Assembly (NCBI GenBank): GCA_009829735.1
Contig: CM020620.1
Location: 24,092,020 to 24,156,019, forward strand
Source: Pyropia yezoensis
Lineage: Eukaryota > Rhodophyta > Bangiophyceae > Bangiales > Bangiaceae
DNA: 64,000 nt
Reading direction: 5' to 3'
Below are positions 36,819 through 63,539 of the stretch, piece by piece. Both the position numbers and the translations under genes were made by a program. How positions within the stretch are numbered: the stretch's first letter is position 1; each line of letters begins with the position of its first letter. Under the pieces are notes generated by a model. It was given only the letters and a program-made list of their open reading frames with translations. It was not told where the DNA came from and searched no databases.

Positions 36819-39800
36819 TTGAGCCGATGCCGCATGAACCCCCGGGTACACCTTCCGGCCCCGACGACACGGCGTCAGGGGATGGATGACCAACCACCAA
36901 GGTTGGGAGGAGAGGACGGGAAGCCCCGTCACATTGAACCAGACAAGGGCCCTGTTCGGGATGCCCGAGCTACACCGGATATCGGTGTAGGCCACGTACT
37001 ATTCACCTTGGAGAACTTCGAGGTATCAGCCACACTGGGGGTTGACCCCCATTCGACCAGATCGTATTACCTTGTGCTGGACACAGGGGCTGGACCTAAC
37101 CTGATCCGGAAGGATACCCTCCCGGACAAGTGGCTCCCGCGAGTCAGAGTTGCTCGGGGACCCACGATCAAGGATGCGAATGGTCGTCTCATTCGTACGA
37201 CCGCAGCGATGTCGCTGCTGGTCACCATCGGGGAGCTCACTACGGAAGTTGACTTCCTGGTGTGTGAGACTCTATCTGTGCCCTGCATACTGGGGTGCAC
37301 CTTCATCAACGTTCACGTTGATGCCATCCGGCCGGGCCCGAGGACCGTCGAGCTGCAAGAGGCCGACGGGACTAAGAGAGGACGGACAGCTATCGTCAGG
37401 GACCTGACATTACAAGGGAGCCACGTTAACGTGGCTGAGGTATATGCCAACGTAGAACCGAAGACACTCCGGCTCGCCAAGCGGACTCGCTTTGAACCGC
37501 TATCGGAGACCGTCCTCCCGGTTAACTGTGACCTCGCAGGCATCTGCAGAGTCCAGTCCAACCTGCGAACCTACAAGCGCCATGGGTTGACCATGGCCAA
37601 CGGTATCGTAGACCTCCCAGCGAGGAGGTCATCACTGCTCGTGATGGCGAACTATCGCCGTAAGGCAGTCACCCTCCCGAAAGGAACTATCCTCGGGATT
37701 GCCGAGCTCTACGAAGGAGACATCCTTACCCCTGACAAGGAGGGTCAAGTGGAACCACTTGGGGTACTGGCGGTCACCGAGACCGCCGAGCGACAGCAAC
37801 CCGATGACGGGAAGCCTGACCCATCAACAGCTCCGGCGGACATTCCGCCAAAGGACCAAGAAGCCTTGAAGGCACTGGCCAAGGCTGACCTCGACCATCT
37901 TCCCCCTTCGGTAGCTGAAGGGGTATGACGGATGCTAAGAAAGCATGACGTCATGTGGACCGGCGGGGCGCTGGGTACCACTGGGGCAACCCAGCACCGT
38001 ATAGACCTGGTACCAGTTGCTCGACCAGCGCGGTCGCGACCGCATCGCGCGGGACCTATGCAACGAGACATCGTTGATGGAGAAGTGAAGAGGATGAGCG
38101 AAGCTAAGGTGATCCGACCTTCGATGTCGGAGTGGGGCGCCCCAGTCGTTATCGTACCGAAGAAGGATCAAACCCCTCGGTTTTGCATCGAGTATCGACG
38201 CCTCAACTTGGTTACCAAGAAAGACTCATACCCTTTACCAAGGATGGACGAGTGCATCAACTCGCTGGGGGAAGCCACAGTGTTCACCACTATCGACTGC
38301 AATGCCGGGTACTGGCAGATCCCAGTTGCGGAAAAGGATATCCCCAAGACGGCGTTCGTCTGTCACAGTGGCGTGTACGAGTTCCTAAGGATGCCCTTCG
38401 GTTTGTCCAACGCCCCCGCCACATTCCAACGGGCCATCGACATTATACTGTCGGGAGTCAAGTGGCGTAACTGCCTGGTGTACCTGGACGACGTCATCGT
38501 CTTCTCGCGTAACATGGATGACCATGTGCAACATGTCGACGAGGTACTCACCCTCTTGCGGAACGCCGGGGTAACCCAGCGACTCAAGAAGTGCGCCTTC
38601 TTCCAGCAGACCGTCGAGTATCCGGATCACCAGAACACGCCAGGTAAACTGGGCGTGCTCGAAGCTAATACCCGGGCACTCCGGGACGCGCGATACCCGA
38701 CCACCCAGACACAGCTGAAAAGCTTCCTGGGGATGTGCAACGTATACCGACGGTTCGTCAAGGACTTCGCTCGTATAGCCAAACCGTTAACGGTTCTGAC
38801 GAGCAGCGCCTTGCCAAAGGTACTTCATCCTCCCTCGCCCAGCGAGTGAGAGGCATTCGAGCTGCTCAAGCAAGCTCTGCTAGCCCCACCCGTGCTTGCG
38901 TTGCCGCATAGACGGGGGACCTTCGTCATCGACGTCGATGCCTGCAACACCCAAGTGGGATGCACCCTGCTACAGGAAGAGACCATCATCGGCACCGATA
39001 ATGCTATCCCGGACGTACATCCGGTAGGGTACTTCAGCCGGACACTCAACCCGGCTGAGCGTAACTATAGTGCCACCGAGCGCGAGTGCCTCGGAGTCAT
39101 ATGGGCAGTACAACTGCTCCGGCCATACCTGGAAGGATCCAGGTTCATCGTAAGGTCCGACGACGAATCTTAACGATAGCTTCTCAACCTTGGTGACAAG
39201 GATTCCGACAGCCACGGTCGGCTATCCCGGTGGAGGCTGAAGATGGCCGAGCACGATTACCGGACCATACATAAGGCCGGGTCCACCAATCATCTGGGGG
39301 ACGCGCTGTCGCGACTCGATACACCGAGCGGGGATACCCGACAGGTGGACGAGGACATCCCCGTGGTACCAGTTTGCATGGTGGGTAATACCACCCAAGG
39401 TATGGTTGACCATACCATGGCACACCTTGCGTTCCCACTGACCCTCGCGGACTTCCGCGAGGCACAGGCCAGTGACGATGACTGTAAACGCCATCGTGCT
39501 AACCTCCTGGCCGGCACGGCCGGCATCTTCTCCGAGAACAAGGACGGACTCCTATACCGGCAGGCACCCGCCGATGGACGGCATCAGGTCGTGGTTCCCG
39601 TGTCCTTACGGCAGGCCGTCATGGAACGAGAGCACGAGAACCCCACAGCCGGACACCCGGGGGGTTCGCGCATGGTCGCAGCAATGCGAAGGTTCTGCTA
39701 CTGGCCAGCAATGGCCGTCGACGTAGTCGACCACGTGCGGGGATGCCACCCGTGTGCACGGAATCGCATGAGTCTTCATAGGCGGGCATCCGCTATGAAA

Positions 39801-40910
39801 CTATTCGCCCCGGATGGGCCCAACGCGCAAGTCGCTATCGACATACTCGGGCCGCTTCCGGTAACGGAAGAAGGGAACAGGTACATCCTGGTCATGTCGG
39901 ACCGCTTTACTAAGCTGTCACGGGCAGTAGCGATCCCGAACGATACAGCCTACACGATCATGGGCGCAGTGGCTGACCACTGGATCAGTGCTTACGGAGT
40001 AATAAAGCACCTCCTCTCCGATAACGCAGCAAACCGTACGTCAGCATTCTGCACTCAGGACCTGGGCATGTTCGGCATCGAACCACATCGGGCATCCGAC
40101 TACCACCCGCAATCCAACGGGCAGGTGGAGCGGTTCAACCGCACCATCGTCAAGATGCTCCAATGCTATGTGGCGGAGCACACGATGACGTGGGACAGGC
40201 TTCTGTCCGTCTTGACCCTGGCATACAATGCCAGGCCCCACCGGAGTACAAACATTGCACCACTGGAAGGGGTCATGCCAATGGGCGTCGGGAACCTGAC
40301 GCTGCCACCGAGCAGATGCACTCGGTATGACATACCGAAGGGCCGACCGGCCGAACGGATCCACTTAGCTTGGTTGGCCAAGCTATCGTGGATGATACCC
40401 AAGCTCAAGGGTGCCCTTGACCGTACACAACTTCGATACAAGAAGAACTTTGACGCCCGGTTACGGGTACGCAACGCAACCCTGGTAGCAGGTGACTGGG
40501 TCTACATCAGACACCAGAAGCTCCGGGGGAACAAGCTTATGCAACCGGTCAAGGTACCGTACCAGATCTTACACATAGATGATCACTCTGTGATTCTGCA
40601 CTCCGATACGGAGATACAACGCATCAACCTCAATGATGTGACACCTGCTCCGAAGCCGGAACATCCTCAGCCGGTACCAGCTGGGTTGCTACATGAAGCT
40701 CTTACAACCCACCGGTCAGATGACCCGGTGGGACCGGATGGGATTCCATACCAAGCAGAGAGCGTGGTCGGACACACCGACCCAGACCTACCAGGACCCT
40801 GGTACGTCAAGGTGATGTGGGTCGGATACGACTCACCCACCTGGGAACAGGCGGCGAATATACCCCGCCAACTCCTCATGCCTTACATGAGGCGACGACG
40901 CCTACTGTAA
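36819..40910 (+). pseudogene. pol of A1: protease, RT, RNase H, integrase, chromodomain
   Basis: One reading frame throughout with stops at 37926-37928 (TGA; CGA in A2), 38847-38849, 39171-39173 and 39177-39179. Order: retropepsin (LDTGAGPNLIR), RT with FTTIDCNAGYWQI, MPFGLSNAPATFQ and the catalytic YLDDVIVFS, RNase H (DVDACNTQVGC, TERECLGVIWA), integrase zinc finger (HENPTAGHPG ... CHPC), core with DILGPLP, LSDN and VERF, then a chromodomain (ESVVGHTDPD ... MWVGYDSPTWEQ) ending in TAA. The domain order and chromodomain place it among the chromovirus-like Ty3 elements. Nonfunctional because of the stops. Confidence 0.9.
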
Positions 40911-41360: not shown

Positions 41361-43730
41361 TCAGTGGGTAGACCCACTGCACGAGGGAGGCCACTCACGC
41401 GTAAGCGCGTACATCTCCATGCTCCACCGGTCGGCCATCTCACGACGGTCAATCACCCGAGTTACCTCGGTGCATAGCTGAACAAGGGTGCTGCGGCCGG
41501 CCTCCACGTCCGCCAGAGCGGACTGGAGACGGTCCAGCACGCCACCGAAGCAACGCGCGGACCCAACCAGCGCAGCACCTGGGGGGATATCCCCCCAGCT
41601 AACAGAGAGATCCTCCCGCATCGCGCGGGCAACAAGGGCGTCAACGCCCTCATACCAGAGACGGGGACCCCCGTCATGCATGACAGGGGCGAGAGGTGAC
41701 ACTGGCGGAGCCAGAGGAGCCACAGGAGCCGACACGGCTACCACCGGAGCCGGTGGCACCTGATACGAGGCCCGGCAGGACCCTACTGAAGGAGCTCCAC
41801 CGTAAACCCGGCGGGGCTCTGCCCGACGACGGGACACCTCACGCTCCCCACCCGCAGAGCCCCACTCTCGGGGACGACGGCCAACCGCCACAGGTATCGG
41901 GTTACCGAACCATGGGGCGAGGACCTGTAGAGGGTCATGGATAATCATGGGAAAACCCAGGTCAGCAACAGCCTCGGTGGATGCCCACCAACGGTAACTG
42001 GGCTCACCCGGCTGAGTACGCCGGATACGCAACGAGTGACGAGGCAAGGGGGAAGCCCCAGCCTGCGGGTCCCGGTACGGGGGAAGGGCCAACACCCCAG
42101 CCCAGTTCACGGCATCGTGAACAGCCAGGAGGGCCTCGAACTCCCGGGCCACCCCGGTCTTGGCGGCTATCATGTCCACGCCCAACTGCTCGATGTGCCG
42201 ACGGACACCCGTCGGAAGATGAAACAGGCGCCCCTGCCGGCGGACGGACAGCAAGAAGGAGGAAGCCTGCCCGAGGGTAACCTCAAGGGTGAAGGTCCCC
42301 TGCAACGGATGGACCGGCCGGGAGGCCAACACACTCCCGAAGTATCGGAGGCAGGAGCCGGCGTCAAGCCGGAAAACAGGGGCGGGTTCCCACCCCTACT
42401 GCCACGGAGGCGGGCGCACGGCAGTGTACACCGGCGCACGACCGTTACCGGTCTGCAACGCACACGTTATATCGGTGCGGAACGCATCCGCCATGACACC
42501 ATGGTTACGTCGCCAGCTCGACGCTGACTTCAACCCCGCCATAGGCGGGCACGGGGCCGTCAACGTCAAATACGGGGATACCCCCGGGAAGTACTCGAAC
42601 TCGGGATACCGGCCAGTATCACCCACCGTCTCCCCGAACGCAAGCGGCTCCGCCGCCGCCGCAATCCCCCGAGCACTAGCCGGGTAGTCAACCTCCCGCG
42701 GCAATGCGGGGGCAATCAAGTCGCATATCCCGAAGTTGGGGTCGAGGTAGACCTCACCCCGTCCCATCCGGGTGCGCCAGAGCTGCGCATGCCGGTCGTC
42801 CGGCTGGCTCAGGATCCAATGATGTTCCACCCGGACCGCGTTCGGCTGGTTGACCAGCCGCACCAACTCCCGCTCCCAACTCGGGTCCACCTTGACGCCC
42901 CGGGAGGTCTCTCCAGGAAGACGCGGCTGGTGGAAGTCCACCCGCATCCGCCCAGCGGACTCCATCGACTCCTGCACAGTCATGCCTCGAACCCGAGCCA
43001 CCAAGTCGGACATCGACATGGCGGGTTGACCCGCCGCCAAGGCGACGCCGCCACCCAACGGGGCAACCCGGGCAGGACCAGGAAGAATAGGGGGCGCCGG
43101 GGGAAGCCCCACCGGCAGATGGGCCGGCCCCGGCCGAGCACGGGGCCGAGGAGGAAGAAGAAGGGCGGGCGCCCGCCCGGAGTAACTCCCGGAGTCCACT
43201 GCCATCGGGGAAGATACTTCTTGACCACCCAGCGTCCGCGGCACCGCGGGCAACGCATCGCCGCCACCCGGGCCCGACGGGGGCACCACGGGGGCAGCAG
43301 GGGTAGACCCGTTACCCGCCGCCGGGGATACACCAATCGGGCGGGCAACCGCGCCGTCTTGACCCGCCGACCCGGCCGGGGTGCCGCCACGACCTTCCGA
43401 CACGCCGGCGACACCGTCTTGAGGTAGAGACCCGCCGGCATCGGCGACAGAAGCCATCCGTACCGCCGGAGGAGTAAGGGTAGAGGCCACCGCTTCACGC
43501 GGTTGCCCGCCACCCGACAGAGCCGTCGTGCCGCTGCACACGGACGACAATCGGCCCGGCGCACCTTCCGGGGCCACACGAACGGTCACCCGGTCGCCCT
43601 CGTCCTCCGACGAGCTCGCCAGGAAGCACTCGGCGGCGGTGGCAGAGACGGGAACGTCGTCCACCATCACCTCTTCCTCCTTCTCAAGCGGGAGGTCGTC
43701 CTCGCCCCCGGGTACCTGGGGGTCCGCCAT
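41361..43730 (-). pseudogene. Antisense accessory gene of A1 (aORF-A1), one stop
   Basis: Minus-strand frame from ATG at 43730-43728 (Met-Ala-Asp-Pro-Gln-Val) to 41361, about 790 codons, with one nonsense codon, TAG at 42398-42396, where A2 has GAG. The N-terminal half is acidic then Pro/Gly/Ala-rich and differs from A2 by in-frame length changes. The C-terminal half from about 43060 downward is highly similar to A2, including RYFGSVL, GRLFHLP and AREFEALLAVHD. It converges on pol, leaving about 450 bp between the two 3' ends. Confidence 0.75.
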
Positions 43731-47872: not shown

Positions 47873-48235
47873 TGTAGCACAATAGGGATCCGTCGCGCGT
47901 CCACTCTCAGGGAACACTCACCAAGGGGGATCGGCACCAACGTCACCGGGAGGCCAAGGTTGCTGTCCTTGGAGCGCAAGCCACGGGACCAAGATGGGAG
48001 CCCAAATGGGAGGGGTTTGTTGTTCTACCTTGGCCGGCGGTGGATTCGCCACCGGCCCCCTCGTTATAAACCCTCGGAGACACTACTAACTACCCTCCAC
48101 CCCAAGATGCAAGTCCCTCTGGTCATACGTAACTTATAGATACCGTGACCAGCTCGGACTCTCAAATTGGAAGTTAAGGATTAGAAGTAGCCCCCCTAAT
48201 ATTAGGGTCACAATACGGACAACCATATTGCTACA
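47873..48235 (-). mobile_element. 3' LTR of A2
   Basis: 363 bp, TGTAGCA...TGCTACA. It includes the GC hairpin at 48032-48057 and, read on the minus strand, a TATA-like GTTTATAACG before it. Confidence 0.95.
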
Positions 48236-48248
48236 TATCCCCCCCTTA
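48236..48248 (-). promoter_or_regulatory. Polypurine tract of A2
   Basis: Minus-strand TAAGGGGGGGATA directly abutting the 3' LTR, the usual plus-strand priming site of LTR elements. Confidence 0.75.
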
Positions 48249-48716
48249 GATTCGGCCCGTCCTCGGGTCGAGTTGCATTCGGGTTACCGAATGTAAGTGG
48301 GTCGCGTGACTGTTTACCCGTCGGGTGGGGCTTTGCGCCCCGTCGCGACAGACACCCCTTTTCGAGGTTGTCCGAGGGGGGTGCCCCCCTTTGTGTGGTA
48401 CACACACACGATCCGTTTTCCGGACCGTTAAATTCCCGATGCGGGTTGCTGTTCGCGCCCCCCCTTTCCGAGGGGTGGTGCAAGCGGATCCGCCACCAGG
48501 TGCCTGGTGGTAGGGGGGCCCCTCTCGTGTGGACGATTGAGTGGGGGGCGGGGGCTGCCCGCGTTGCGTGGGGGCGGTTGGGGGTGACCCCCCTTACTTA
48601 CCCCGTGTGTGGGTGTGGCCCCGTCCCGCCCAGGTGCCTGGGTGGAGCGCGGTCGTAGCCCCGTGGGGCGCGGGTCGACCCGCGTGCCTGCGGCGCTTCT
48701 CGTGGCCGTTTGTGGT

Positions 48717-48737
48717 CATAAGCGCGGGTGTCCGCGC
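48717..48737 (+). promoter_or_regulatory. Candidate promoter/leader hairpin of the antisense gene
   Basis: A CATAAGC (TATAAGC in A1, 43837-43843 minus strand) sits directly beside a GC palindrome GCGCGGGTG(T/C)CCGCGC, about 90-110 bp upstream of the antisense ATG in both family-A copies, in a region that otherwise diverges. Its role as a promoter is an inference from position and conservation. Confidence 0.35.
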
Positions 48738-48822
48738 TTCCCTGGCTCGTCCCGGTTATCCCACCGTACCGGGTTGTAGCCGTCGACGGCTTGTGGGCGC
48801 GGGGGACTCCGCACCCGTTATC

Positions 48823-51270
48823 ATGTCCTATCCCCAGGTGCTTGAAGAGGAGGAAGACCTCCTGATCGGGGAGGAGATGGAGGACGACGCGCCTGTCGGT
48901 CCCGACGCCGCGCGTTACGGGGTGAGCTCGTCTGACGACGACGGGCCTGCGGTGTCCGTCCGTCTGTCGGCCGGAGGACTGTCGTCCGTGTGCAGCGGCA
49001 CGACGGTGCCGTCGGCCGGAGGTCAACCCGGCGGTCAACCGCGCGTGGCGGCTTCTACCCCCTCTCTGCCGGCTGCCCGGATGGGGCCTGGTGCCGGTGC
49101 CGGCTCACCGCAGCTACCTCAAGATGGTCCGCCCTGCGGCGGAGGTCGCGACCCGCAGCCGACTCCGGCTGGTCAAGGTGGTCCGGGTGTCCGGGCGGTG
49201 ACTCCTCGAGGTGGTCCCGACGTTGACGCGGGTGGTGGTGGCGGTGCGACACCCGGTGCGGTGGGTCAAGACGGTGCGGGTGTCCGCACGGCCGGGGCTC
49301 CGGCTCCGGAGGCTGTCCCAGTGCCTTCCACTTCCGAGGCGGGGGCTACGCCGACGGGTGGTGCCGGCGCCGGTGCCGTACCTGCGGTGCCGCGGGCGTC
49401 GAGCGGTCAAGACGCTCCTTCTCCCATGGCGGTTGACACCGGGAGTTACTCCGGGCGGGCGCCCGCCCTTCTTCTTCCTCCTCGGCCTCGTCCATCTCCG
49501 ACGTCGGCCCCTCTGCCGGTGGTGCGTCCCCCGGCGCCCCCGATTCTTCCTGGTCCTGCCCGGGTTGCCCCGTTGGGTGGCGGCGTCGCCGTGGCGGCGG
49601 GTCAACCCGCCATGTCGGTGTCCGACTTGGTGGCTCGGGTTCGAGGCCTCACGGTGCAAGAGTCGATGGAGTCCGATGGGCGTATGCGGGTGGACTTCCA
49701 CCTGGTGCATCCCCGTGGAGAATCCTCCCGGCGCGTCAAGGTGGACCCGTGCTGGGAGCGGGAGTTGGTGCGGCTGGTCAACCAGCCGAACGCGGTCCGG
49801 GTGGAACACCATTGGATCCTGAGTCAGCCGGACGACCGGCATGCGCAGCTCTGGCGCACCCGGGTGGGACGGGGTGAGGTCTACCTCGACCCCAACTTCG
49901 GGGTCTGCGACTTGATTGCCTCCGCGTTGCCGCGGGAGATCGACTACCCGGCTAGTGCTCGGGGGATTGCGGCGGCGGCGGAGCCGGTTGCGTTTGGGGA
50001 GACGGTGAGCCGTACCGGTCGGTATCCCGACTTTGACTACTACCCGGGGGTACCCCCGTATCTGTCGTTGACGGCTCCCTACCCGCCCATGGCGGGGTTG
50101 AAGTCGGCGTCGAGTTGGCGACGTAACCATGGTGTCATGGCGGATGCGTTCCGCACGGATATAACGTGTGCGTTGCAGACCGGCAACGGTCGTGCTCCGG
50201 TATACACTCCCGTGCGCCCGCCGCTATGGCAGGAGGGGTGGGAACCCGCCCCTGCTTTCCGGTTTGACACCGGCTCCTGTCTTCGCTACTTCGGGAGTGT
50301 GTTGGCCTCGCGACCGGTCCACCCGTTGCAGGGTACCTTCACCCTTGAGGTTACCCTCGGGCAGGCTTCATCCTTCTTGCTGTCCGTCCGCCGGCAGGGT
50401 CGTCTGTTTCATCTTCCGACGGGTGTCCGTCGGCACATCGCGCAGTTGGGCGTGGATCTGATAGCCGCCAAGACCGGGTTGGCCCGGGAGTTCGAAGCCC
50501 TGCTGGCTGTTCACGATGCCGTGAACTGGGCTGGGGTGTTGGCCCTTCCCCCGTACCGGGACCCGCAGGCTGGGGCTTCCCCCTTGCCTCGTCACTCGTT
50601 GCGTGTCCGGCGTACTCAGCCGGGTGAGCCTAGTTGCCATGGGTGGGCGTCCACCGAGGCCGTTCCTGACCTGGGTATTCCCATGGTTATCCATGACCCT
50701 CTTCAGGTCCTTGCTCCGTGGTTCGGTAACCCGATGCCGGCGGCGGTTGGCCGTCGTCCCCGAGAGTGGGGCTCTGTGGGTGGGGAGCGTGAGGTGTCCC
50801 GTCGTCGGGCGGAGTACCGCCGTGGTTACGGTGGAGCCCCTTCGGTAGGGTCCTACCGGGCCTCGTATCAGGTGCCACCGGCTCCGGTGGTAGCCGTGTC
50901 GGCTCCTGTGGCTCCTCTGGCTGCGCCAGTGTCACCTCCCGCCCCTGTCCTACATGACGGGGGTCCCCGTCTCTGGTATGAAGGCGTTGACGCCCTTGTT
51001 ACCCGCGCAATGCGTGGGGGTCTCTCTGTTAGCTGGGGGGATATCCCCCCAGGTGCTGCGCTGGTTGGGTCAGCGCGTTGCTTTGGTGGCGTGCTGGACC
51101 GCCTCCAGAAAGCTCTGGAGGACGTGGAGGCTGGCCGCAGCACCCTCGTCCAGCTATGCACCGAGGTAACTCGGGTGGTCGACCGTCGTGACATTGCCGA
51201 CCGGTGGAGCACGGAGGTATACGCGCTTACGCGTGAGTGGCCTCCCTCGGGCAGTGGGTCTACCCACTGA
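48823..51270 (+). CDS. Antisense accessory gene of A2 (aORF-A2), intact
   Basis: 815 codons plus stop, from ATG at 48823 (Met-Ser-Tyr-Pro-Gln-Val) to TGA, on the strand opposite gag-pol and converging on it. The frame is open upstream to 48541, but A1 shares a start at this Met. Residues ~8-25 are strongly acidic, ~40-270 are Gly/Pro/Ala/Val-rich, and from ~265 (VSDLVARVRG) a folded-looking region begins. Marks include HHWILSQPDD, MADAFRTDITCALQ, WRRNHGV, RYFGS (YFG at 489-491), GRLFHLP, GLAREFEALLAVHD and a C-terminal helix after SVSWGDIPPG-type residues. The YFG(S/D) and HLP blocks occur at similar spacing in aORFs B and D. There is no zinc knuckle, catalytic triad, signal peptide or membrane span that I recognise. 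Function is unknown; an accessory role in the element life cycle is possible. Confidence 0.8.
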   Translation: MSYPQVLEEEEDLLIGEEMEDDAPVGPDAARYGVSSSDDDGPAVSVRLSAGGLSSVCSGTTVPSAGGQPGGQPRVAASTPSLPAARMGPGAGAGSPQLPQDGPPCGGGRDPQPTPAGQGGPGVRAVTPRGGPDVDAGGGGGATPGAVGQDGAGVRTAGAPAPEAVPVPSTSEAGATPTGGAGAGAVPAVPRASSGQDAPSPMAVDTGSYSGRAPALLLPPRPRPSPTSAPLPVVRPPAPPILPGPARVAPLGGGVAVAAGQPAMSVSDLVARVRGLTVQESMESDGRMRVDFHLVHPRGESSRRVKVDPCWERELVRLVNQPNAVRVEHHWILSQPDDRHAQLWRTRVGRGEVYLDPNFGVCDLIASALPREIDYPASARGIAAAAEPVAFGETVSRTGRYPDFDYYPGVPPYLSLTAPYPPMAGLKSASSWRRNHGVMADAFRTDITCALQTGNGRAPVYTPVRPPLWQEGWEPAPAFRFDTGSCLRYFGSVLASRPVHPLQGTFTLEVTLGQASSFLLSVRRQGRLFHLPTGVRRHIAQLGVDLIAAKTGLAREFEALLAVHDAVNWAGVLALPPYRDPQAGASPLPRHSLRVRRTQPGEPSCHGWASTEAVPDLGIPMVIHDPLQVLAPWFGNPMPAAVGRRPREWGSVGGEREVSRRRAEYRRGYGGAPSVGSYRASYQVPPAPVVAVSAPVAPLAAPVSPPAPVLHDGGPRLWYEGVDALVTRAMRGGLSVSWGDIPPGAALVGSARCFGGVLDRLQKALEDVEAGRSTLVQLCTEVTRVVDRRDIADRWSTEVYALTREWPPSGSGSTH

Positions 51271-51584
51271 GGAGTGCTATTTGTTTGTGAGGGAGAGGGT
51301 CCCGGCAACCCTTATGGTAGCCGGGTAGTAGTGAGTATAAACTCATCCCCCGCTGGGGGCATTGCTTGCCTCTGTTTGCTGCCCTGGGGAGTACCCCTTC
51401 TGGCTCAGTGGTGCCTTGCCTCCCGTCCAACTTCTTCCGGTTGGTTCATGCTTGGGGAGGTTATCCTCCCTCACTTTGTGTCTTGGCTTTGGGAGGTCAT
51501 CCTCCCGTGTAAGCCTCCTAGTTACTTCGATATTATCGGAGTTAGCCTTTACCTTTAAGTTACCTTATTAAGGTTCAGGTTTTT

Positions 51585-51680
51585 ACTTAGTTACCTAAGC
51601 TTAGCTCTACTTAGTTACCTAAGCTTGGTTCGACTTAGAAACCTAAGTCTGATTTGACTTAGAAACCTAAGTCTGCTTTA
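51585..51680. repeat. 4 x 24-bp palindromic tandem repeat between convergent genes of A2
   Basis: Four consecutive 24-bp units, each with a CTTAG...CTAAG inverted repeat (units 1-2 ACTTAGTTACCTAAG, units 3-4 ACTTAGAAACCTAAG). They lie between the 3' ends of aORF-A2 (51270) and pol (51752). A1 has two diverged units in the same interval (about 40990-41035). RNA from either strand could form hairpins here, suiting a two-way 3' end or terminator, but that is inference. Confidence 0.8.
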
Positions 51681-51751
51681 ACCATGTCACACCCTACTTA
51701 GTAGGTATAAGCCTCACCCCCCAACAGCCGAAGTCGGTGTCGGTTGGGTTG

Positions 51752-54700
51752 TTACAGTAGGCGTCGTCGCCTCATGTAAGGCATGAGTAGTTGGCGGGGT
51801 ATATTTGCCGCCTGTTCCCAGGTGGGTGAGTCGTATCCGACCCACATAACCTTGACGTACCAGGGTCCTGGTAGGTCCGGGTCGGTGTGTCCGACCACGC
51901 TCTCTACTTGGTATGGAATCCCATCCGGTCCCACCGGGTCATCTGACCGGTGGGTTGTAAGGGCTTCATGTAGCAACCCAGCCGGTACCGGCTGAGGCTG
52001 TTCCGGCTTCGGAGCAGGTGTGACATCATTCATACTGATGCGTTGGATCTCCGTATCGGAGTGTAAGATAACAGAGTGGTCATCTCTGTGGATGATCTGG
52101 TACGGTCCCTTGACCGGTTGCATAAGCTTGTTCCCTCGGAACTTCTGGTGTCTGATATAGACCCAGTCACCTGTTACCAGGGTTGCGTTGCGCACCCGTA
52201 GTCGGGCGTCGAAGTTCTTCTTATACCGAAGTTGTGTTCTGTCAAGGGCACCCTTGAGCTTAGGAATCATCCACGATAGCTTGGGCCAACCAAGCTAGGT
52301 GGATGCGTTCGGCGGGTCGGCCCTTCGGTGTATCATACCGAGTGCACCTGCCTGGCGGCAGCGTCAGGTTACCGACGCCTAGTGGCATGACCCACTCCAG
52401 CGGAGCAATGTTTGTGCTCCGATGTGGCCTGACATTGTATGCCAGGGTGAGTACGGACAGAAGCCTGTCCCAAGTGTTCGTGTGCTCGGCCACGTAGCAC
52501 TGTAGCATCTTTACGATGGTGCGGTTGAACCGCTCCACCTGCCCGTTGGACTGCGGGTGGTAGTCGGATGCCCGACGTGGTTCGATACCGAACATGCCCA
52601 GGACCTTAGTGCAGAATGCCGACGTAAGGTTTGCTCCGTTATCGGAGAGGAGTTGCTTCATGACTCCGTATGCACTGATCCAGTGGTCAACCACTGCGTT
52701 CATGATCGTGTATGCCGTATCATTCGGGATGGCTGCCGCTCGTGACAGCTTGGTGAATCGGTCAGACATGACCAGGATGTACCTGTTCCCTTCTTCCGTT
52801 ACCGGAAGTGGCCCGAGTATGTCGATAGCGACTTGCTCGTTGGGCCCATCGGGTGGGAATAGCTTCATGGCAGACGCCTGCCTATGTAGACTCATGCGGT
52901 TACGCGCACAGGGGTGGCATCCCCTTACGTGGTCGACCACGTCGACGGCCATTGCTGGCCAGTAGAAGAACCTTCGCATTGCTGCGAACATACGTGAACC
53001 CCCCGGGTGTCCGGCTGTAGGGTTCTCATGTTCTCGTTCCATGACGGCTTGCCGTAAGGACACGGGAACCACGACTTGATGTCGTCCATCGGCGGGTGCC
53101 CGCCGGTATATGAGTCCGTCTTCGTTCTCGGAGAAGATGCCGGCCGTACCGGCCAGGAGGTTAGCACGATGACGTCTACAGTCATCGTCGTTGGCCTGTG
53201 CCTCGCGGAAGTCCGCGAGGGTCAATGGGCACGCAAGGTGTGCCATGGTATGGTCAGCCATACCCTGGGTAGCATTACCCACCATGCACACCGGTACTAC
53301 CGGGATGTCCTCGTCCACCGGGCGGGTATCCCCGCTCGGGGTGTCGAGTCGAGACAACGCGTCTCCGAGGTGGTGGGTTGACCCAGCCTTATACACCGTG
53401 CGGTAGTCGTGCTCGGCCATCTTCAGCCTCCATCGGGCTAGCCTCCCATGGCTATCGGAATCCTTGTCACCAAGGTTGAGGAGCCATCGTAGGGGTTCGT
53501 GGTCGGACCTCACGATGAACCTGGAGCCCTCCAGGTATGGACGGAGCAGTTGCACTGCCCATATAACTCCGAGGCATTCACGCTCGGTGGCACTATAGTT
53601 CCGCTCAGCCGGGTTGAGTGTCCGGCTGAAGTACCCTACCGGACGTAGGTCCGGGATAACGTTATCGGTACCGATCAACGTCTCTCCCTGTAACAGGGTG
53701 CATCCCACTTGTGTATCACACGCATCGACATCGATGACGAAGGTACCCCGTCTATGCGGTAACGCAAGGACGGGTGGGCTAGTAGGGCTCGCTTCAGCGA
53801 CTCGAATGCCTCCTCTTCGCTAGGCGAAGGGGTTGGAGTACCTTGGGTAAGGTACTGCTCGTAAGAACCGTTAACGGTTTAGCTATCCGAGCGAAGTCCT
53901 TGACGAACCGTCGGTATACATTGCACATTCCCAGGAAGCTCTTGAGCTGCGTCTGGGTGTTAGGGAACCGGNNNNNNNNNNNNNNNNNNNNNNNNNNNNN
54001 NNNNNNNNNNNNNNNNNNNNNNNNNNNNNNNNNNNNNNNNNNNNNNNNNNNNNNNNNNNNNNNNNNNNNNNNNNNNNNNNNNNNNNNNNNNNNNNNNNNN
54101 NNNNNNNNNNNNNNNNNNNNNNNNNNNNNNNNNNNNNNNNNNNNNNNNNNNNNNNNNNNNNNNNNNNNNNNNNNNNNNNNNNNNNNNNNNNNNNNNNNNN
54201 NNNNNNNNNNNNNNNNNNNNNNNNNNNNNNNNNNNNNNNNNNNNNNNNNNNNNNNNNNNNNNNNNNNNNNNNNNNNNNNNNNNNNNNNNNNNNNNNNNNN
54301 NNNNNNNNNNNNNNNNNNNNNNNNNNNNNNNNNNNNNNNNNNNNNNNNNNNNNNNNNNNNNNNNNNNNNNNNNNNNNNNNNNNNNNNNNNNNNNNNNNNN
54401 NNNNNNNNNNNNNNNNNNNNNNNNNNNNNNNNNNNNNNNNNNNNNNNNNNNNNNNNNNNNNNNNNNNNNNNCCAGGAAGCTCTTGAGCTGCGTCTGGGTG
54501 TTAGGGAACCGGGCATCCCGGAGTGCCGGGTATTGGCTTCGAGTACCCCTAGTTTACCAGGGGTTATCTGGTGGCCCAGATATTCGACCGTCTGTTGGAA
54601 GAAGGCGCACTTCTTCAGACGCAGGTTACCCGGCGTTCCTCAAGAGGGTGAGTACCTCGTCAACATGTTGTACATGGTCATCCATGTTACGCGAGAAGAC

Positions 54701-56451
54701 GATGACGTCATCGAGGTACACTAGGCAGTTACGCCACTTCACCCAGACAGTATGATGTCGATAGCCCGCTGGAATGTAGCGGGGCGTTGGACATCCGAAG
54801 GGCATCCTTAGGAACTCGTACACTCCACTGTGACAGACGAATGCCGTCTTGGGGATATCCTCGTCCGCCACCGGGATCAGCCAGTATCCGGCATTGCAGT
54901 CGATGGTGGTAAACACCGTAGCCTCCCCCAGGGAGTCGATGCATTCATCCATCCTTGGTAAAGGGTATGAGTCCTTCTTGGTAACCAAGTTGAGGCGTCG
55001 ATAATCGATGCCAAAACCGAGGGGTTTGATCCTTCTTCGGCACAATAACGACTGGGGCACCCCATTCCGACATCGAAGGTCGGATCACCTTAGCTTCACT
55101 CATCCTCTCACTTCTCCATCAACGATCTCTCGTTGCATAGGTCCGCTCGGTGCGGTTGTGACCGGGCGGGTCGTGCGCTGGTACCAGGTCTATACGATGT
55201 TGGGTTGCCCCAATGGTCCCCAAGGCCCCGCCTGTCCACATAACGTCATGCTTTCTTAGCATCCGTCGTACCCCTTCGGCTACCGAAGGGGGAAGGTGGT
55301 CGAGGTCAGCCTCGGCCAGTGCCTTCAAGGCCTCTTGGTCCTTTTGTCGGCAGGTCCGCCGGAGCCGCCGATGGGTTAGGCTTCCCGTCATCGGGTTGCT
55401 GTCGCTCGGTGGTCTCGGCGACCGCCAGTACTTCAAGTGGTTCCACTTGACCTTCCTTATCAGGGGTAAGGATATCTCCTTCGTAGAGTTCGGCAATCCC
55501 GAGGATAGTTCCCTTCGGGAGGGTGACTGCCTTACGGCGGTAGTTCGCCATCACTAGGAGGGACGACCCTCCTGCTGGGAGGTCTATGAGACCGTTGGCC
55601 ATGGTCAACCCATGGCGCTTGTACGTCCGTAGGTTGGACTGGACTCTGCAGATGCCTGCGAGGTCGCAGTGAACCAGGAGGACTGTCTCTGACAACGGCT
55701 CAAAGCGAGTTCGCTCGGCCAACCGAAGTGTCTTCGGCTCGACGCTTGCGTACACCTCAGCCACGTTAACGTGGCTTCCTTGTAGCGTCAGGTCCCTGAC
55801 GATAGCCGTGTGTCCTCGCTTCGTCCCGTCGGCTTCTTGAAGCTCGACGGTCCTCCGGCCTGGCCGGATTGCATCAACGTGAACGTTGATGAAGGTGCAC
55901 CCCAGTATGCAGGGCACCGATAGCGTTTCACATACCAGGAAGTCAACTTCCGTGGTGAGATCCCCGATGGTAACCTGCAGCGACATCGCTGCGGTCGTAC
56001 GAATGAGTCGACCATTCGCGTCCTTGATGGTGGGTCCCCGAGTCACTCTGACTCGTGGAAGCCACTTGTCCGGGAGGGTATCCTTCCGGATAAGGTTGGG
56101 TCCAGCCCCTGTATCCAGTACAGGGTAGTACGATCGTGTCGACTGGGGGTCAACCCCCAGTGTGGCTGATACCTTGAAGTTCTCCAAGGTAAACAACACA
56201 TGTCCTACACCGATATCCGGTGTAGCTCGGGCATCCTGAACAGGGCCCTTGTCTGGTTCAACGTGAAGGGGCTTCCCGTCCTCTCCTCCCAACCTCGGAG
56301 GTTGGTCATCAATCCCCTGACGCCGTGTCATCGGGGCCGGAAGGTGTACCCGGGGGTTGATGCGGCGTCGGCTCAACCGCGCTCTCCGTGGGGCTTTCCC
56401 CGCGGTACTCCGGGGTGGCTTGCTTGGGTGACCCCAGCGCCCCCCGGTCAT
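51752..56451 (-). pseudogene. pol of A2: protease, RT, RNase H, integrase, chromodomain (frame breaks, assembly gap)
   Basis: Starts at ATG 56451, eight bases after the gag stop and in a different phase. Protease (LDTGAGPNLIR) is intact to about 55330. Compared with A1 there are single-base differences near homopolymers at about 55340 and 55110, an extra G near 55014, and four to five missing bases in 54630-54830, so the RT (IDCNAGYW, YLDDVIVFS) is spread over several phases. A 500-N gap follows. RNase H to chromodomain is one intact frame, 53708-51752: TERECLGVIWA, HENPTAGHPG with CHPC, DILGPLP, LSDNGANLTS, VERF, then ESVVGHTDPD and WVGYDSPTWEQ. Some or all frame breaks may be sequence errors. 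Confidence 0.88.
53972..54471. other. Assembly gap of exactly 500 N
   Basis: Flanked on the left (53931-53971) and right (54472-54512) by the same 41 bases. A1 has this sequence once and without interruption, so the gap most likely joins two overlapping contigs and no bases are missing. Confidence 0.95.
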
Positions 56452-56459
56452 CCTTCCTC

Positions 56460-58643
56460 TTACTCGTTTCCCGCCCTTGGTAGGGTGCTGTCCGCCGGGA
56501 CATCCGGCTGAGGAGGTGCCCCCTCGACGGCCAGTACTCCACCTGGAGCTGGCTGCCTACCCGGTGCGGGTCCGGGTGCTCGGGCGGGATACCCCCCGGT
56601 GGATGCCTTGCGTTGCGCCGCTGCCCGCCGAGACTCCTCGGGGATGAGTGGGCAGGAAGACACCCAGTGCTGGGGATCCCCACACAACATACATCCGGAC
56701 GTGCCGGTCCCCCCTTGAGGTCGCATCGGGGTAGCTCCGTAGCTACGGTTGCCTCCCTCGGGCGCCCGAGTGCCTGCTCCCTGGTAGGCCTTGGGTCCTT
56801 GGGTCAACCGGAACATGGACTCCCCCAACCGGTTGGGTCGGCCCGCAATCTGCGGGGGTGCCTCCGTGCGCACCGCCCATGTTGGCAAGGGTTGGTGAGG
56901 GTTACCCGTCACCGGGGAGTACCCCGTAGTCCGCACATACGGGACGCGCCGTCCCGTTCCTTCGTTGACCTGGAACTGGGTTCCAGCCGGGGCGATGTAC
57001 GCTACCGTACCATGTTCATCAATCACCGGCGTCGCCGGTAGCAACAGGTGGCCCTGTTGGTCGACTAGAGGGTCACCCTCACCAATAGGGGTATGTTCGG
57101 TCGCCACCAGTACTGGTGCGGCCTTACGTTCCACCTTCTCTTGCCTCGGTACCGGGGTAAGACTGGGCTTGCCTCCCTCACCCTTGGGCTTCGGGGCCAA
57201 GGCACACTCCGGGTGTAGAACCCGGTAGGCGTCCCCTAGGGACTTGCACATATGCATCAGTCGACTGAAGTTCGTCCGTGCCGTGTTGGCGCCCCGTGCG
57301 GATATCCGCACGTAGTTGGGTACTCCTGCGAACAGGATGGCCCGTAGCTCCCCTTCTCCGAGGAGCTTCCCCAGCTCGTAGTCGAGCTCTTGGATCCGGC
57401 GTCCAAACATCTCCTCATCCTCCCAGGACTGGGCGGTGGCAGTGCGAAGGGCCCGATAGTGGTCCTCACACTTGTCCTCACTGAGGTAGCTGCTCAGCAG
57501 CTCCTTCAATATCCCACGGTAATCCATGGGGGTGGCCGCGACCCTCATTCCCGGCATCGGGGATGCCTGGCGAAGAATGCCTCGCACCCGTTCATCAACA
57601 AAGAACGGGAGGATCTCCAGAGCCAGCCCCTCGTTAACGAGCGCCTTGTCTGCGGCTGCCTTGAAGCTAGTCAAGAAGCCGATGACTGCCAACGGGCGTC
57701 CGTTCGGCCCCCCGAACATAGGGACTCCCTTCATAAGGGTCTGCACAGAGCGGATCGCCCGATGCGACGTATTACGCATCGATTCCGATACGGTGGTAGA
57801 GCGGTCCTCCAAACGATAACGTTCCGGAGTAAGAACCGACCGGAAGACCTCGTTGACGATCTCCGTGTCAGCGTCCTGGATATCCAGTCGCTTAGCCAGT
57901 TGGTGAGCGAACTCATCGGACTCCATCCGCTTCAGTAGGCTCGCAGTTACCTGCGCGGTCATAGCTTCCACCACTGAGGATGGTACTTCAGGCGTCGGCA
58001 CCTCGGGAACCCGAGTTGCCGGGCCTCCTTCGTCGTGGGGGTACTGCGAGAGGGTACCTCCTCCCCCAATAACCGACTCTCCCCCGGCGTACGTATCCGC
58101 CGGGTCGTGTCCGCGGAGTCCGCTTCGGGTGCTCCGAGCGTATCGCTCCGTGTGACTCCGTTCCAACTCTGCCGACGAGTCGGACCCATACCCCATTGTG
58201 TCCGGGGGTTGTCCAGGAGTAGCAACACCGGGGTTGACCCTGGTGGACTCCGAAAGTAGTCCGGCCGGTTCGAACCGTACCGGTGTGGGAGGAACACGAC
58301 GGGATCCCGTCGTGTGCCGTGTTGACATCAACACTGCCATTGCGTCCTCCGTCCGATCTTGACGGGCGTCGAGCCCGGAAAACCGGGCCTCGATGCGGGC
58401 CAATGATGCCATCAGGGAATCCCCTGGTGAAGGAGGCGGCGGAGTGAGGTCGGTCGACGACAGTTGAGGCGGGCCCCCGCCTCCTGCCGTCCGAGCCGTG
58501 CCAAACGTCGATCCGGCACCGGAATGCATTGGCGTCTCAATGTTATCGATCGGGTTCCCGATCCCGGTTCCCGTAGTCACCTCCGGGGTCGGCGTCGACG
58601 CCGATCCGTCATCTTGAACGTTCCCCGTCTCTTGGGTAGACAT
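56460..58643 (-). CDS. gag of A2, intact
   Basis: 727 codons from ATG at 58643 to TAA at 56462-56460. The N-terminal ~230 residues are Pro/Thr/Ser/Gly-rich with two predicted helices (SLMASLARIEARFSGLDARQ). The capsid-like domain spans roughly residues 270-480 (GFLTSFKAAADKALVNE ... GILRQASPMP ... DYELGKLLGEGELRAILF). A CCHC zinc knuckle (CMLCGDPQHWVSSC) lies near residue 665. This is the only complete gag in the window. It should assemble particles and bind element RNA. The pol ATG lies eight bases past its stop in another phase, so pol expression needs reinitiation or frameshifting. Confidence 0.92.
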   Translation of the reverse strand: MSTQETGNVQDDGSASTPTPEVTTGTGIGNPIDNIETPMHSGAGSTFGTARTAGGGGPPQLSSTDLTPPPPSPGDSLMASLARIEARFSGLDARQDRTEDAMAVLMSTRHTTGSRRVPPTPVRFEPAGLLSESTRVNPGVATPGQPPDTMGYGSDSSAELERSHTERYARSTRSGLRGHDPADTYAGGESVIGGGGTLSQYPHDEGGPATRVPEVPTPEVPSSVVEAMTAQVTASLLKRMESDEFAHQLAKRLDIQDADTEIVNEVFRSVLTPERYRLEDRSTTVSESMRNTSHRAIRSVQTLMKGVPMFGGPNGRPLAVIGFLTSFKAAADKALVNEGLALEILPFFVDERVRGILRQASPMPGMRVAATPMDYRGILKELLSSYLSEDKCEDHYRALRTATAQSWEDEEMFGRRIQELDYELGKLLGEGELRAILFAGVPNYVRISARGANTARTNFSRLMHMCKSLGDAYRVLHPECALAPKPKGEGGKPSLTPVPRQEKVERKAAPVLVATEHTPIGEGDPLVDQQGHLLLPATPVIDEHGTVAYIAPAGTQFQVNEGTGRRVPYVRTTGYSPVTGNPHQPLPTWAVRTEAPPQIAGRPNRLGESMFRLTQGPKAYQGAGTRAPEGGNRSYGATPMRPQGGTGTSGCMLCGDPQHWVSSCPLIPEESRRAAAQRKASTGGYPARAPGPAPGRQPAPGGVLAVEGAPPQPDVPADSTLPRAGNE

Positions 58644-58848
58644 GGTCACAATCAGTCAACCGACGTATCAATCACCACGAACAAGAGAGCGAGGGGGTAG
58701 ATTGGGGAGAGTAACAGTAGATCACAGTCACAGGTAAAATCTCAACACAATCGATCAGGTCACAACACCACGAGTACAAGAAAAGGACCGGATCCCTATC
58801 CGTGTGCCAGGGCCGAAGACGGCGTCACCACAAGGGTGACGGAAACCC

Positions 58849-58867
58849 GTCCCCTGCTGCTCCACCA
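58849..58867 (-). promoter_or_regulatory. Primer-binding site of A2
   Basis: Minus-strand TGGTGGAGCAGCAGGGGAC one base from the 5' LTR. Confidence 0.8.
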
Positions 58868-58868
58868 A

Positions 58869-59231
58869 TGTAGCACAATAGGGATCCGTCGCGCGTCCAC
58901 TCTCAGGGAACACTCACCAAGGGGGATCGGCACCAACGTCACCGGGAGGCCAAGGTTGCTGTCCTTGGAGCGCAAGCCACGGGACCAAGATGGGAGCCCA
59001 AATGGGAGGGGTTTGTTGTTCTACCTTGGCCGGCGGTGGATTCGCCACCGGCCCCCTCGTTATAAACCCTCGGAGACACTACTAACTACCCTCCACCCCA
59101 AGATGCAAGTCCCTCTGGTCATACGTAACTTATAGATACCGTGACCAGCTCGGACTCTCAAATTGGAAGTTAAGGATTAGAAGTAGCCCCCCTAATATTA
59201 GGGTCACAATACGGACAACCATATTGGTACA
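58869..59231 (-). mobile_element. 5' LTR of A2
   Basis: 363 bp. Identical to 47873-48235 except G for C near its outer end (GGTACA in place of GCTACA on the plus strand). Confidence 0.95.
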
Positions 59232-61484
59232 CAGTGCAAGCGTCTACCGTTTGGTCTGTGTAACGCGCCGGCAACTTTCCAGCGCGCTATGGACATGATT
59301 CTGGCCGGAGTACAGTAGCAGATCTGTCTTGTGTACCGACGTTTCACCAAGGGCTTCGCCAATGTGGCGAAGCCGTTGAATGAGTTAGTGAGCTCAACGC
59401 TACCGAAGAACCTGCCTCCCCCAAGTCGGGTGGAGCAGGAATCCTTTGAGACTCTTCGGGACCTTCTGCTGAAGCCCCCTATCCTGGCTATTCCCAGATT
59501 GGGAGGCCACTACATCCTGGATGTGGACGCTAGCTACGACCAACTTGGTTGTGTATTGCTTCAGCAGCAGCCGGACAAGGAGTACTTGCCGGTGGGGTAC
59601 TTCAGCAAGGGGCTGAACTCGGCCGAGAAGAACTACGGAGTCACCGAGTTGGAAGGACTCGCAGTTGTGTGGGCGGTGACGTCACTTCGTCACTACCTAG
59701 AGGGTGAGAAGTTCCTCATCCGCTGTGACCACCGCGCGTTGCAGTTCATCTTTAAGACGGACTGTACGAACACTCGTCTCAATCGGTGGAGGGTGCGACT
59801 GGCACCCTTCAACTTTGATATTGAGTACCGACCTGGCAGGCAACATGCCCTTGCCGACGGCCTTTCTCGGGTACCTACAGAGGGGCTGGACACTAACCCA
59901 GTCGATGAGGACATCCCCATCGTGGGGGTAGTCACGCGCTCGGGTCAGGTGTTGAACCCCGAGGCGCCAGGGAAGAAGAAGTACTTGCCCCTGTCCCTGG
60001 ACGAGGTGGTGAAGGCCCAGGCCGAGGATCCCTTCTGCAAGTCGCAGAGGGATACACTGGATACAGTGGCGGTGACGCGGCTCTTTCTGGGAGACGATGG
60101 CCTCCTCATGAGGAGGGGGGTATTCCAGGGGACCGAACAACTTGTCGTCCCCGCATCCCTCAAGGACAGTATCCTTGAGAGGGAGCATAACGCTCCCACG
60201 GGTGGACACCTGGGGTCTAGTAAACTGTACCAGACCCTGAGGACCAGGTACTACTGGCCGTCCATGGTGGTGCACATCTACATTTGGGTGGCTGCCTGCA
60301 CAAGTTGTGCACAGAACCGTCTGATGGAACGGCGGCCTACTACGGCTATGCTATTGTTCCCGGCCAAGGAGCCCTTTGCCGCGTTGGCGATGAACATCCT
60401 TGGGCCACTGCCAGTGACCGAGGAGGGCAACCAGTACCTCCTGGTCATCTGTGACCGCTTCACGAAACTTACGCGAGCGATCCCACTGGCAGAGATCACG
60501 GCCATGTCGGTCGTGTCAGCCTTCCTAGATCACTGGGTTGCCGCGTATGGCATTCAGGATAGTACACTATCGGACAATGGACCGCAATTTGCGTCTGTAC
60601 TGTTTCAGGAAGTGCTGGATATGTTGGGGGTTAAGGCAAACTATGCCACCCCCTACCACCCACAAACTAACGGGCAGGTGGAGCGCTTCAACAAAACTAT
60701 TGTTCGGCAGCTGCGCCACTATGTGAGTGAGCATGTGAAAACGTGGGACCAATACATTTCTATTCTTACCACTGCCTACAATTCGCAGGTTCACTCATCT
60801 ACCGGGGAAGTACCCCTCGCTTTTGTGACCCCCCGACGCGTGCGGTCTATTGCCGTGCGGCGGCCGCTCCCAACTAGGGAGGAGGGTGGCAGTACGCCTA
60901 CTCCTACTGAGAGTAAGGCGGAGTTCGCTGCTAGGCTTGAAAACCTCATCCCTAAAGTCAGGGCTGAGATGGACAAAGCACAAAAGCGCTATAAGCGTAC
61001 CTTTGACGAAAAGGTGCGCAATGCTAAGCATGTCCCCGAGCAGGGTGACTGGGTGCTGGTACACTCACACACCCCAACTGGGGGTAAGTTGGTATTCCAG
61101 ACAAAGGGGCCGTACCAGGTCCTTCGTACTGATGGGCGGTGCTTCACCATCGAAAGTGACGATGGGGTCCGCACAGTGAACGGACAGGACGTGGTCAAAG
61201 TTGCACCACCGCCTGCAGGCGACCCAGCTTGGGCGCGTGCGTTGGAAGCGTGGCGCCTCCCCTCGCTGCCTGCGGCCAAACAGGGCCCGCAGGAGTACGT
61301 GTTCGATAAGTTCATCGACCACGGCTGGGATGAGGACACTGACCGCCTCATGTTGAGGGTCCGTTGGTTTAGCTACAAAGCCAAGGATGATACGTGGGAG
61401 TATGTGGAGGACCTTCACGCTGAGAAGGTCCGGGCTTACTGTGCCAGGAATGAGATAGACCCTAACAGCCCTCCCTCAACGTGA
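59232..61484 (+). pseudogene. pol of B1, 3' part: rest of RT, RNase H, integrase, chromodomain
   Basis: Resumes in phase after the CAGTG duplication with RLPFGLCNAPATFQ. TAG at 59316-59318 stands where Trp is usual. At about 59333-59337 the frame jumps from the strand before the YLDD catalytic loop straight to the RRFTKGF connection, a deletion of roughly 265 bp relative to family A that removes the RT active site. RNase H is complete (LDVDASYDQLGC, TELEGLAVVWA, RCDHRAL, LADGLSR). Integrase has the HNAPTGGHLG zinc finger with CTSC, LSDNGPQFAS and VERF, but the first catalytic Asp is Asn (MNILGPLP, codon 60393-60395). A chromodomain ends the protein (EYVFDKFIDHG ... LRVRWFSY ... DDTWEY). Dead as it stands. 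Confidence 0.9.
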
Positions 61485-61595: not shown

Positions 61596-63539
61596 CTAGG
61601 TATGCATGCTAGAATCTCCAACCCCACGGCCCTCGCCCTCACGTGGAGACGAGCGGCGAGACCCACGGAGATAACGCTCCCCACCAGTCGGCGGGGCCGG
61701 CGGCTCCAAGTCGGAGCCGCCGCGCCCCTCACGGTCGCGCAAGTGGCGACGACCGCGGCTGCCCTTCTGTTTAGTCTTGCGCGCAAGTTGGCGACGCAGA
61801 CGCCGGACCGACTCCGACTCTGACGGAGTCAAGGACTCCGAGACGGAGTAAGACAACTCTTCTTCCGACACGGAGGGAGAGCGCCGCGAGTGTCGGCGGC
61901 GACGGCGAGGAGGCGAGTATGCCCGGCTCGCGCGACGTTTGCCACACCCAAGTGGGGCTGGCTGGGGCATAATAGCCCCAATGCGAGCCAACTCGGCCGT
62001 CATAAACTCCGCCACCGACTCGCAACTCGCGGTCGCCACTGCAGTACGAACGCGCTCCTCAAGTTAAGGAGTCTCGGAACTTTGAAAGGTTGCGGTCGAC
62101 GCGGCCAACCAGGAAATGGTGCGCACCAACGTGGTGATCATCATCTCTGAGGTTAGAGGCGTGGGCGGTAACACCAACTTGGGGTATACCGTCAGGAGGG
62201 TGGCCCCCAAGTTGGGGGACACCGGGGTGGACGACTCAACGGCCACGCTAATCGGAATGTCCCCGTGCGGTTGGTAGGGGACAGGAGGAAGCGGAGGGGC
62301 ACGCCGAGGTGGCGGGACCCGGGTGTAACTGCGACCCCGACTTGGGGCCCCCGCAGTGGGTTGAGTCATACGGTCATCATATGAGGGCACGGCCATAACT
62401 ATGGCCTTGTCCGGGGGTGGCGCAGTGTGGCGATCCACTCCCGGGGCATACGGGTAGTCCCCGATGCCCAACCCCTCTCGTAGGACCACACGGCCGTCGT
62501 GAAGTTCACGAGCGACCCACACGAACTGGCGAAATGCGCCATCGTCCTTGGGCCCACGAGTGGGGCGGCGCAACTTGTGCTCAATGCTCTCCCACTCGAT
62601 AAACGTGTGGAGGCGGAGCATCTCCTCAAGCAGAGTGAGTTGTCCTGATGAGCACCCCTCAGCAACTAGCTGAGGGGTGAGCTGTTCCAAACCTTGGATA
62701 AGCCGGAGGGGGAGATGCCAGAGCATCCCCCGCCGCTGAACACAAGACACCCAGGTCGACATGACCCCGAGGAGCCACTGGGTGGCCAACATAGCCCACA
62801 CCAGGTGATCAGGGCCAGCCGTCAACATGACGGAGCCGAAGTGGTCAAGCAACCGTGGCAGCAACGCCGGGAACCCGTAGGGGACCTCTACTTGAGGCCA
62901 CCACTCGGGCTTCTTCGGATAGTACTGCTCCTTCCTGGCAGCAGACTGCTGAGGAAACTCAAGTTGAGCCGAGGTCACCAAGTAGGGACCTCGCCGGAAG
63001 TCCTTCTCCATCCGCACATCAAAGTGATGAGTGTGCGGATCGGCCTCGTGAATGTACGGGGGGCGAGTTGCCACAGCGTCCCACGTAAAGGTCGGCAAGT
63101 CGCCGGGACCCGGGATAGTTCCCCCGCGGTCCACCATGGCCTTGGCACGCTGTACGTCTTCGACCTCCTCGTCGTCCAGGAAGGCAAACTGGTCCGTCCT
63201 GAAGCCGGCAGGGAACCCGACCCTACGGGGATACTTCTCCCGTAGGCGGTCCCATACCCGACACATCGCTGCGCCAAGTCGGCCACAGCGAAGAACAGGC
63301 AACCCCTCCTCATATAGAGGCCAAGCGGGGTAAAACTACCGCCCCAAGGCCTCACGCGGGACAACTTGTCCTGCCTCCGGGGGAGATCCCGCCGTCAACC
63401 CAAAGCCGGGTGACGCGGGAGTCCCATCCCCCGGAGCGATCGCGGAGCCCCCGCCGGAAGTCCCGGCGGGCGCTGCACTGTAGGAGGTGTCCTCCATACG
63501 CTCGTCGAGAGAGTCCGTCTCCACTCCCGGGGTCGCCAT
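61596..63539 (-). pseudogene. Antisense accessory gene of B1 (aORF-B), two stops
   Basis: A single minus-strand phase from ATG 63539-63537 to the stop at 61596, 648 codons, with TAG near 63336 and TAA at 62066-62064. It converges on pol, whose stop is 110 bp away. After a Gly/Ser/Pro-rich start it has FTWDAVATRPP, QLEFP, 20 residues, VEVPYG (residues 217-222), HFGSVM ten residues later, then MLWHLPLRLI and a helix. The C-terminal ~110 residues are very basic with SR-like repeats (PPRRRRRHSRRSPS). Both stops could be one-step changes from CAG/CAA. Function is unknown. It shares blocks with aORFs C and D and weaker ones with A. Confidence 0.7.

Follow-up and report, generated by a model that had tools for sequence, protein, structure and literature searches.

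Long terminal repeat (LTR) retrotransposons of the Ty3 type are found in a 64,000-nucleotide stretch of the red alga Pyropia yezoensis (assembly GCA_009829735.1, contig CM020620.1, positions 24,092,020 to 24,156,019; hereafter the window), and the long reading frames that run opposite to gag-pol in these elements raise the question of whether they are genes. The frame at the center of this question, in an element termed A2, runs from ATG to stop over 815 codons (48823..51270, + strand) inside a 909-codon stop-free frame (48541-51270). Four further antisense frames lie in the window, in element A1 (41361..43730, - strand; one internal stop, sharing 90.7% identity with A2 across 2063 columns) and in elements B (21349..23511, - strand; three internal stops) and D (61596..63539, - strand; two internal stops), as well as in element C (27406..29085, - strand), where the frame is stop-free and lies inside a 677-codon frame (27406-29439). 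All five occupy the interval between pol and the 3' LTR, on the strand opposite to gag-pol, and converge on pol. A to D are regarded as separate families because pol pieces of at least 175 residues show 27-44% identity between families (short pieces reach up to 67%; for B and C, the comparison covered only A and D). The coordinates and strands that an earlier note had given for these five frames were confirmed. Its description of all five as long frames stands for A2 and C, which are stop-free, but has to be qualified for A1, B and D, which carry internal stops, and for the tail of C, which is probably frameshifted, as the window copy of C matches most of its relatives only until about codon 596 of 677.

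Open frames and selection on the antisense strand

The longest stop-free run was antisense in 5/5 intervals (480 vs. 299 codons in A1, 909 vs. 369 in A2, 360 vs. 210 in B, 677 vs. 230 in C and 423 vs. 191 in D), in agreement with the earlier note. When 300 second-order Markov simulations were run for each of the five pol-3' LTR intervals, as set for this analysis, the observed run length was reached in none of them for A1, A2 and C (0/300 each), in 2/300 for D and in 13/300 for B; the window copy of B alone is therefore weak evidence.

Copies elsewhere were sought in the P. yezoensis assembly (107.5 Mb; three main contigs of 43.6, 34.3 and 29.4 Mb). Stop-free copies were tallied from the matches listed, over the matched stretch only and with the window copies included, and the resulting counts are lower bounds. 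Among the matches listed, no stop was found in 47/50 for A (98-100% identity), 98/99 for D (97-100% identity), 111/130 for B (69-100% identity, with a 302-aa C-terminal piece as the query) and 33/69 for C (42-100% identity, some matches being fragments of a single copy). In addition, an open D frame of 724 codons was present in 26 of the 29 other D copies fetched. At 60 loci with 1.5-kb flanks, pol lay past the antisense gene, on the other strand, in 50 (20/30 for C and 30/30 for D); eight of the other ten had no pol in the flank and two had their best pol match on the same strand. Pol was not seen at seven short loci.

Ratios of nonsynonymous to synonymous substitution rates (dN/dS), calculated by the Nei-Gojobori method, were below 1 for the antisense frame in families A, B and C. 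They were 0.26-0.41 between and 0.27-0.59 within subfamilies of C, where the antisense core showed 0.22-0.24 between subfamilies, 0.30-0.51 among three copies of B, and 0.51 and 0.36 in two pieces compared between A1 and A2. When all six frames were compared in five C pairs, the antisense frame alone was stop-free and the same-strand shifted frames had dN/dS values of 0.89-2.27. The 29 D copies contain 183 distinct variants in the antisense frame, of which 115 are synonymous, 67 are nonsynonymous and one is a stop, giving a nonsynonymous to synonymous ratio (N/S) of 0.25 of expectation. In the same copies, N/S relative to expectation was 2.30 and 2.44 in the same-strand shifted frames and 1.82, 0.30 and 2.07 on the opposite strand, and in one D copy the five other frames carry 12-24 stops (12, 24 and 18 in the three opposite-strand frames). 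The D pol tail had an N/S of 0.62 in 27/29 copies, two with more than 120 differences being left out, and of 1.00 with all 29 copies, a value that is probably distorted by indels.

Taken together, the antisense frame is almost certainly a protein-coding gene under purifying selection. The earlier note had proposed a conserved antisense gene in the four families, and had named the absence of homologous antisense frames from other copies and a dN/dS near 1 between copies as results that would speak against it. The frames are instead often open across the genome, dN/dS is below 1, and the families are linked by profile matches (except A with B), so that the proposal is supported. The roles that the note offered, in RNA control, particle function or host defense evasion, are still speculative, as the note itself had said.

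Protein core, relatives and LTR-side sequence

The apparently complete antisense proteins are approximately 546-815 residues long from the first ATG and have a conserved core of approximately 330 residues. Profile comparisons with hhalign matched 5/6 family pairs, namely C-B (98.1%, E 9.5e-14), C-D (95.8%, E 7.7e-9) and A-D (87.4%, E 3.7e-6) and, weakly, C-A (59.1%, E 9.2e-5) and B-D (51.1%, E 1.5e-4); these E-values are single-pair values and the alignments are shallow. The matched ranges are mutually consistent along the core, and the sole control, C against the A2 gag, gave 0.2%. These matches indicate that the antisense proteins of A-D have a collinear homologous core in common. The proteins had been described in the earlier note as outside any recognized family, which is borne out by the lack of a significant match in Pfam, PDB, NCBIfam or PHROGs. 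Six database relatives were found in all. Two are relatives of A, namely P0001, with 69% identity over 74% of A, and a hypothetical Pyropia vietnamensis protein, P0002, with 40% over 33% (46% in the full alignment); P0003-P0005 are relatives of C and P0006 is a relative of B.

Outside the core, the first quarter of the protein is rich in proline and glycine in A2 (35%), three C types (26-32%) and D (25%), with 12-16% in B. Two predicted structures, with mean predicted local distance difference test (pLDDT) scores of 35 and 44, show with low confidence a mainly helical core followed by a strand pair. Simple patterns identified basic clusters in A2, B, D and one C type, the strongest being near the C-terminus of D.

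The ATG of the A2 antisense gene is 587 bp from the inner edge of the 3' LTR, and in one D copy the ATG is approximately 340 bp from the apparent LTR edge. In the D copy L034, the stop codons of pol and of the antisense gene are approximately 115 bp apart (3237-3352). Two C subfamilies (L005 393-1100 vs. L028) are mostly 93-98% identical over approximately 600 bp at the LTR-side end, with identity declining towards the ATG, whereas the antisense gene is approximately 68%, pol approximately 80%, and the approximately 400 bp separating the antisense gene from pol approximately 50% identical. Either LTR exchange or constraint on control sequences that the two subfamilies share would account for the similar LTR-side ends.

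Known antisense genes and possible functions

Antisense genes between pol and the 3' LTR are already known from angiosperms and fungi; what is new here is another protein family, in red algae. Retand elements of angiosperms carry antisense open reading frames (ORFs) in this interval, TRP28 being present in 97% of clusters (PMC11963269), and gene23 of maize Grande encodes a nuclear protein and is transcribed in antisense from its own promoter (PMC7264820, PMC11963269). The Tat-type comparison made in the earlier note therefore fits in position, since maize Grande with its gene23, rice RIRE2 and Silene Retand have an antisense ORF in the same interval as the red-algal elements. TRP28 (PF04195) was not matched by any of 21 red-algal antisense proteins, in a search where HMMER filters discard most matches above E 0.1, which leaves room for a remote relation. 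The hosts differ as well, angiosperms there and a red alga here. Retand is non-chromovirus, and the pol of D matches the chromodomain short of the cut-off. The fungal element Boty has an antisense additional gene, brtn, in the same interval (PMC7264820), a likeness in position that was drawn from the description of brtn only. CERV of the Cer1 element of C. elegans, also compared by description only, is likewise an additional retrotransposon protein and is required for nuclear export of the genomic RNA (PMC10309623); the main text of that paper does not use the word "antisense". In human T-cell leukemia virus type 1 (HTLV-1), HBZ is expressed from an antisense promoter in the 3' LTR (PMC7264820), and its nuclear product is critical for the virus life cycle (PMC11963269). 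The literature searched, with subscription papers mostly outside its scope, yielded no description of antisense ORFs from elements of red algae, and no occurrence of "alga" in PMC11963269 or of "algae" in PMC7264820 was found in their accessible text.

These findings add red algae, through four Ty3 families in a single genome, to the angiosperms and fungi as hosts of elements with antisense 3' genes, and raise the question of whether the arrangement has arisen once or repeatedly. It is quite improbable that the red-algal gene and the TRP28 gene share one antisense ancestor that predates the split between red algae and green plants. If they do, the backward 3' gene would be no plant oddity but an old component of Ty3 biology maintained by selection.

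The best explanation, as a whole given about an even chance, is that the antisense frame is an accessory gene, carried by a Ty3 lineage of Bangiales red algae, that has its own promoter and encodes a nuclear regulator. As families A-D diverged, the gene was most likely passed down together with the elements. Its promoter would probably lie within the 3' LTR or a short way inward of it and act independently of the 5' LTR, which could allow the antisense protein to be made even when transcription from the 5' LTR is low. The product would most likely be located in the nucleus and act on the transcription, chromatin or genomic RNA of the element itself, a mode of action also proposed for the gene23 product of maize Grande. 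Both the own promoter and the nuclear regulatory role are suggested by analogy with Grande gene23 and HBZ, and the nuclear-regulator mechanism, taken by itself, is accordingly put forward only as a tentative proposal. HBZ is a bZIP protein that acts in the nucleus as a regulator. It could serve as a working model here, with no homology claimed, as the red-algal proteins have no bZIP or other significant Pfam match.

A number of results weigh against a conserved gene with a nuclear role. In the C family, a stop is present in about half of the matches listed, and across seven pairs constraint is tighter on the pol tail (0.05-0.28) than on either the whole antisense gene (0.26-0.53) or the core of that gene (0.22-0.40). 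One opposite-strand frame also has low values (dN/dS of 0.38-0.59 in C and N/S of 0.30 in D), which is attributed to its third positions coinciding with those of the antisense frame. With regard to the protein family, A-B gave no hhalign match (0.4%), so that the placement of family A depends on A-D plus the weak C-A match. Moreover, the structure models are of low quality and have no outstanding fold match, leaving a nucleic-acid-binding fold without support, and the simple patterns used identified no basic cluster in the C-type proteins from L005 and L064.

The low-valued opposite-strand frame also speaks for another reading, in which the antisense frames arise as a by-product of high GC or mirror a coding frame of the sense strand. 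High GC does lengthen chance frames, and the run in the window copy of B is unremarkable by simulation, but the runs in A1, A2 and C were not reached in any simulation. The mirror frame is excluded only by stops, of which it carries 13-19 in the C pairs examined, in line with the many stops in the opposite-strand frames of D. This reading, considered exceedingly unlikely, is refuted by the excess of changes at third positions combined with the opposite-strand stops. That the antisense RNA and not a protein could be the functional product has a precedent in the noncoding antisense transcripts known from other retroelements (PMC7264820). The synonymous excess and the open frames nevertheless require translation, making an RNA product in place of the protein very improbable; action of the RNA may be additional.

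Two further explanations accept a protein but give it another task. Selection shows only that the protein matters and the predicted folds yield no clear match, both of which would fit a structural or particle-associated accessory protein, such as a Gag partner or a helper in assembly or transfer, that is encoded in antisense by chance. The C family, on the other hand, has no similarity to the A2 gag, and such a protein is seen as an unlikely, if serious, contender. An Env-like 3' ORF is contradicted by the opposite orientation and by transmembrane predictions, which gave no strong segment for A, C and D (best 19-residue Kyte-Doolittle mean of 0.98-1.37) and a borderline one for B (1.59-1.99); the latter result also speaks against an Env role for a structural protein. 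Alternatively, the protein could counteract host chromatin or small-RNA silencing, possibly provoked by the convergent antisense transcript itself. Convergent transcripts could yield double-stranded RNA, as discussed for plants (PMC7264820), and A and D have many near-identical copies; a silencing-related or RNA-binding domain was not found in Pfam, however, and an anti-silencing factor is regarded as rather doubtful. The many recent copies of A and D make these families suited to testing what the antisense genes do.

Host elements and the surrounding window

A2 (47873..59231, sense on the - strand) is a Ty3/Gypsy LTR retrotransposon, as indicated by its LTR pair, its target duplication and the order protease, reverse transcriptase (RT), RNase H and integrase. 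The 3' LTR (47873..48235) and the 5' LTR (58869..59231), both on the - strand and delimited by comparison of the pair, are 363 bp each and 99.7% identical to each other; a 5-bp target duplication, CAGTG, flanks the element at 47868-47872 and 59232-59236, and the purine run AAGGGGGGG precedes the 3' LTR. Pol is divided among several frames, with Pfam matches, in order, to protease, RNase H and integrase. RNase H and integrase are encoded in one frame (52260..53819, - strand), beyond which pol similarity runs on in another frame to approximately 51.76 kb. The RT of A2 had no Pfam match, and its region was recognized from its resemblance to the D frame, which matches RVT_1.

A2 is inserted within the RT of element D, in which the frame with the RT start is interrupted near 47885 and pol resumes at 59319. 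The 3' part of the D pol (59319..61484, + strand) has Pfam matches to RNase H and integrase and a weak match to the chromodomain (PF00385; E 0.003, weaker than the curated cut-off). The A1 pol tail (39180..40910, + strand), which is convergent with the A1 antisense gene, was matched to the integrase and not to Chromo in Pfam; the pol tails of A and C, including the end of the A1 tail, resemble a chromodomain tail by eye only. According to one abstract, chromodomain elements occur in red algae (PMC3605345), and a 2012 survey based on limited data reported none in Porphyra yezoensis (PMC3350952). The match between A1 and A2 ends near 43.3 kb and a D-type LTR begins at approximately 43870; D is thus apparently a nested insertion into A1 (window 43870-64000).

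GC content is 56-70% in every 2-kb step of the window except one (54001-56000), where it falls to 44%; the genome as a whole has 65% GC, with LTR retrotransposons as the main repeat class in P. yezoensis (PMC7423979). Approximately 500 bp in the RT region of A2 (window 53960-54472) have no counterpart in A1, and this A2-specific stretch, together with the drop to 44% GC, may represent an insertion or a foreign piece. Elsewhere in the window, two stop-free frames, at 3871-7314 (1147 aa) and 31101-32729 (542 aa), had no Pfam match at E 0.01. Finally, A exceeds T on the A2 sense strand across 48-58 kb, an excess that is greatest within the antisense gene.
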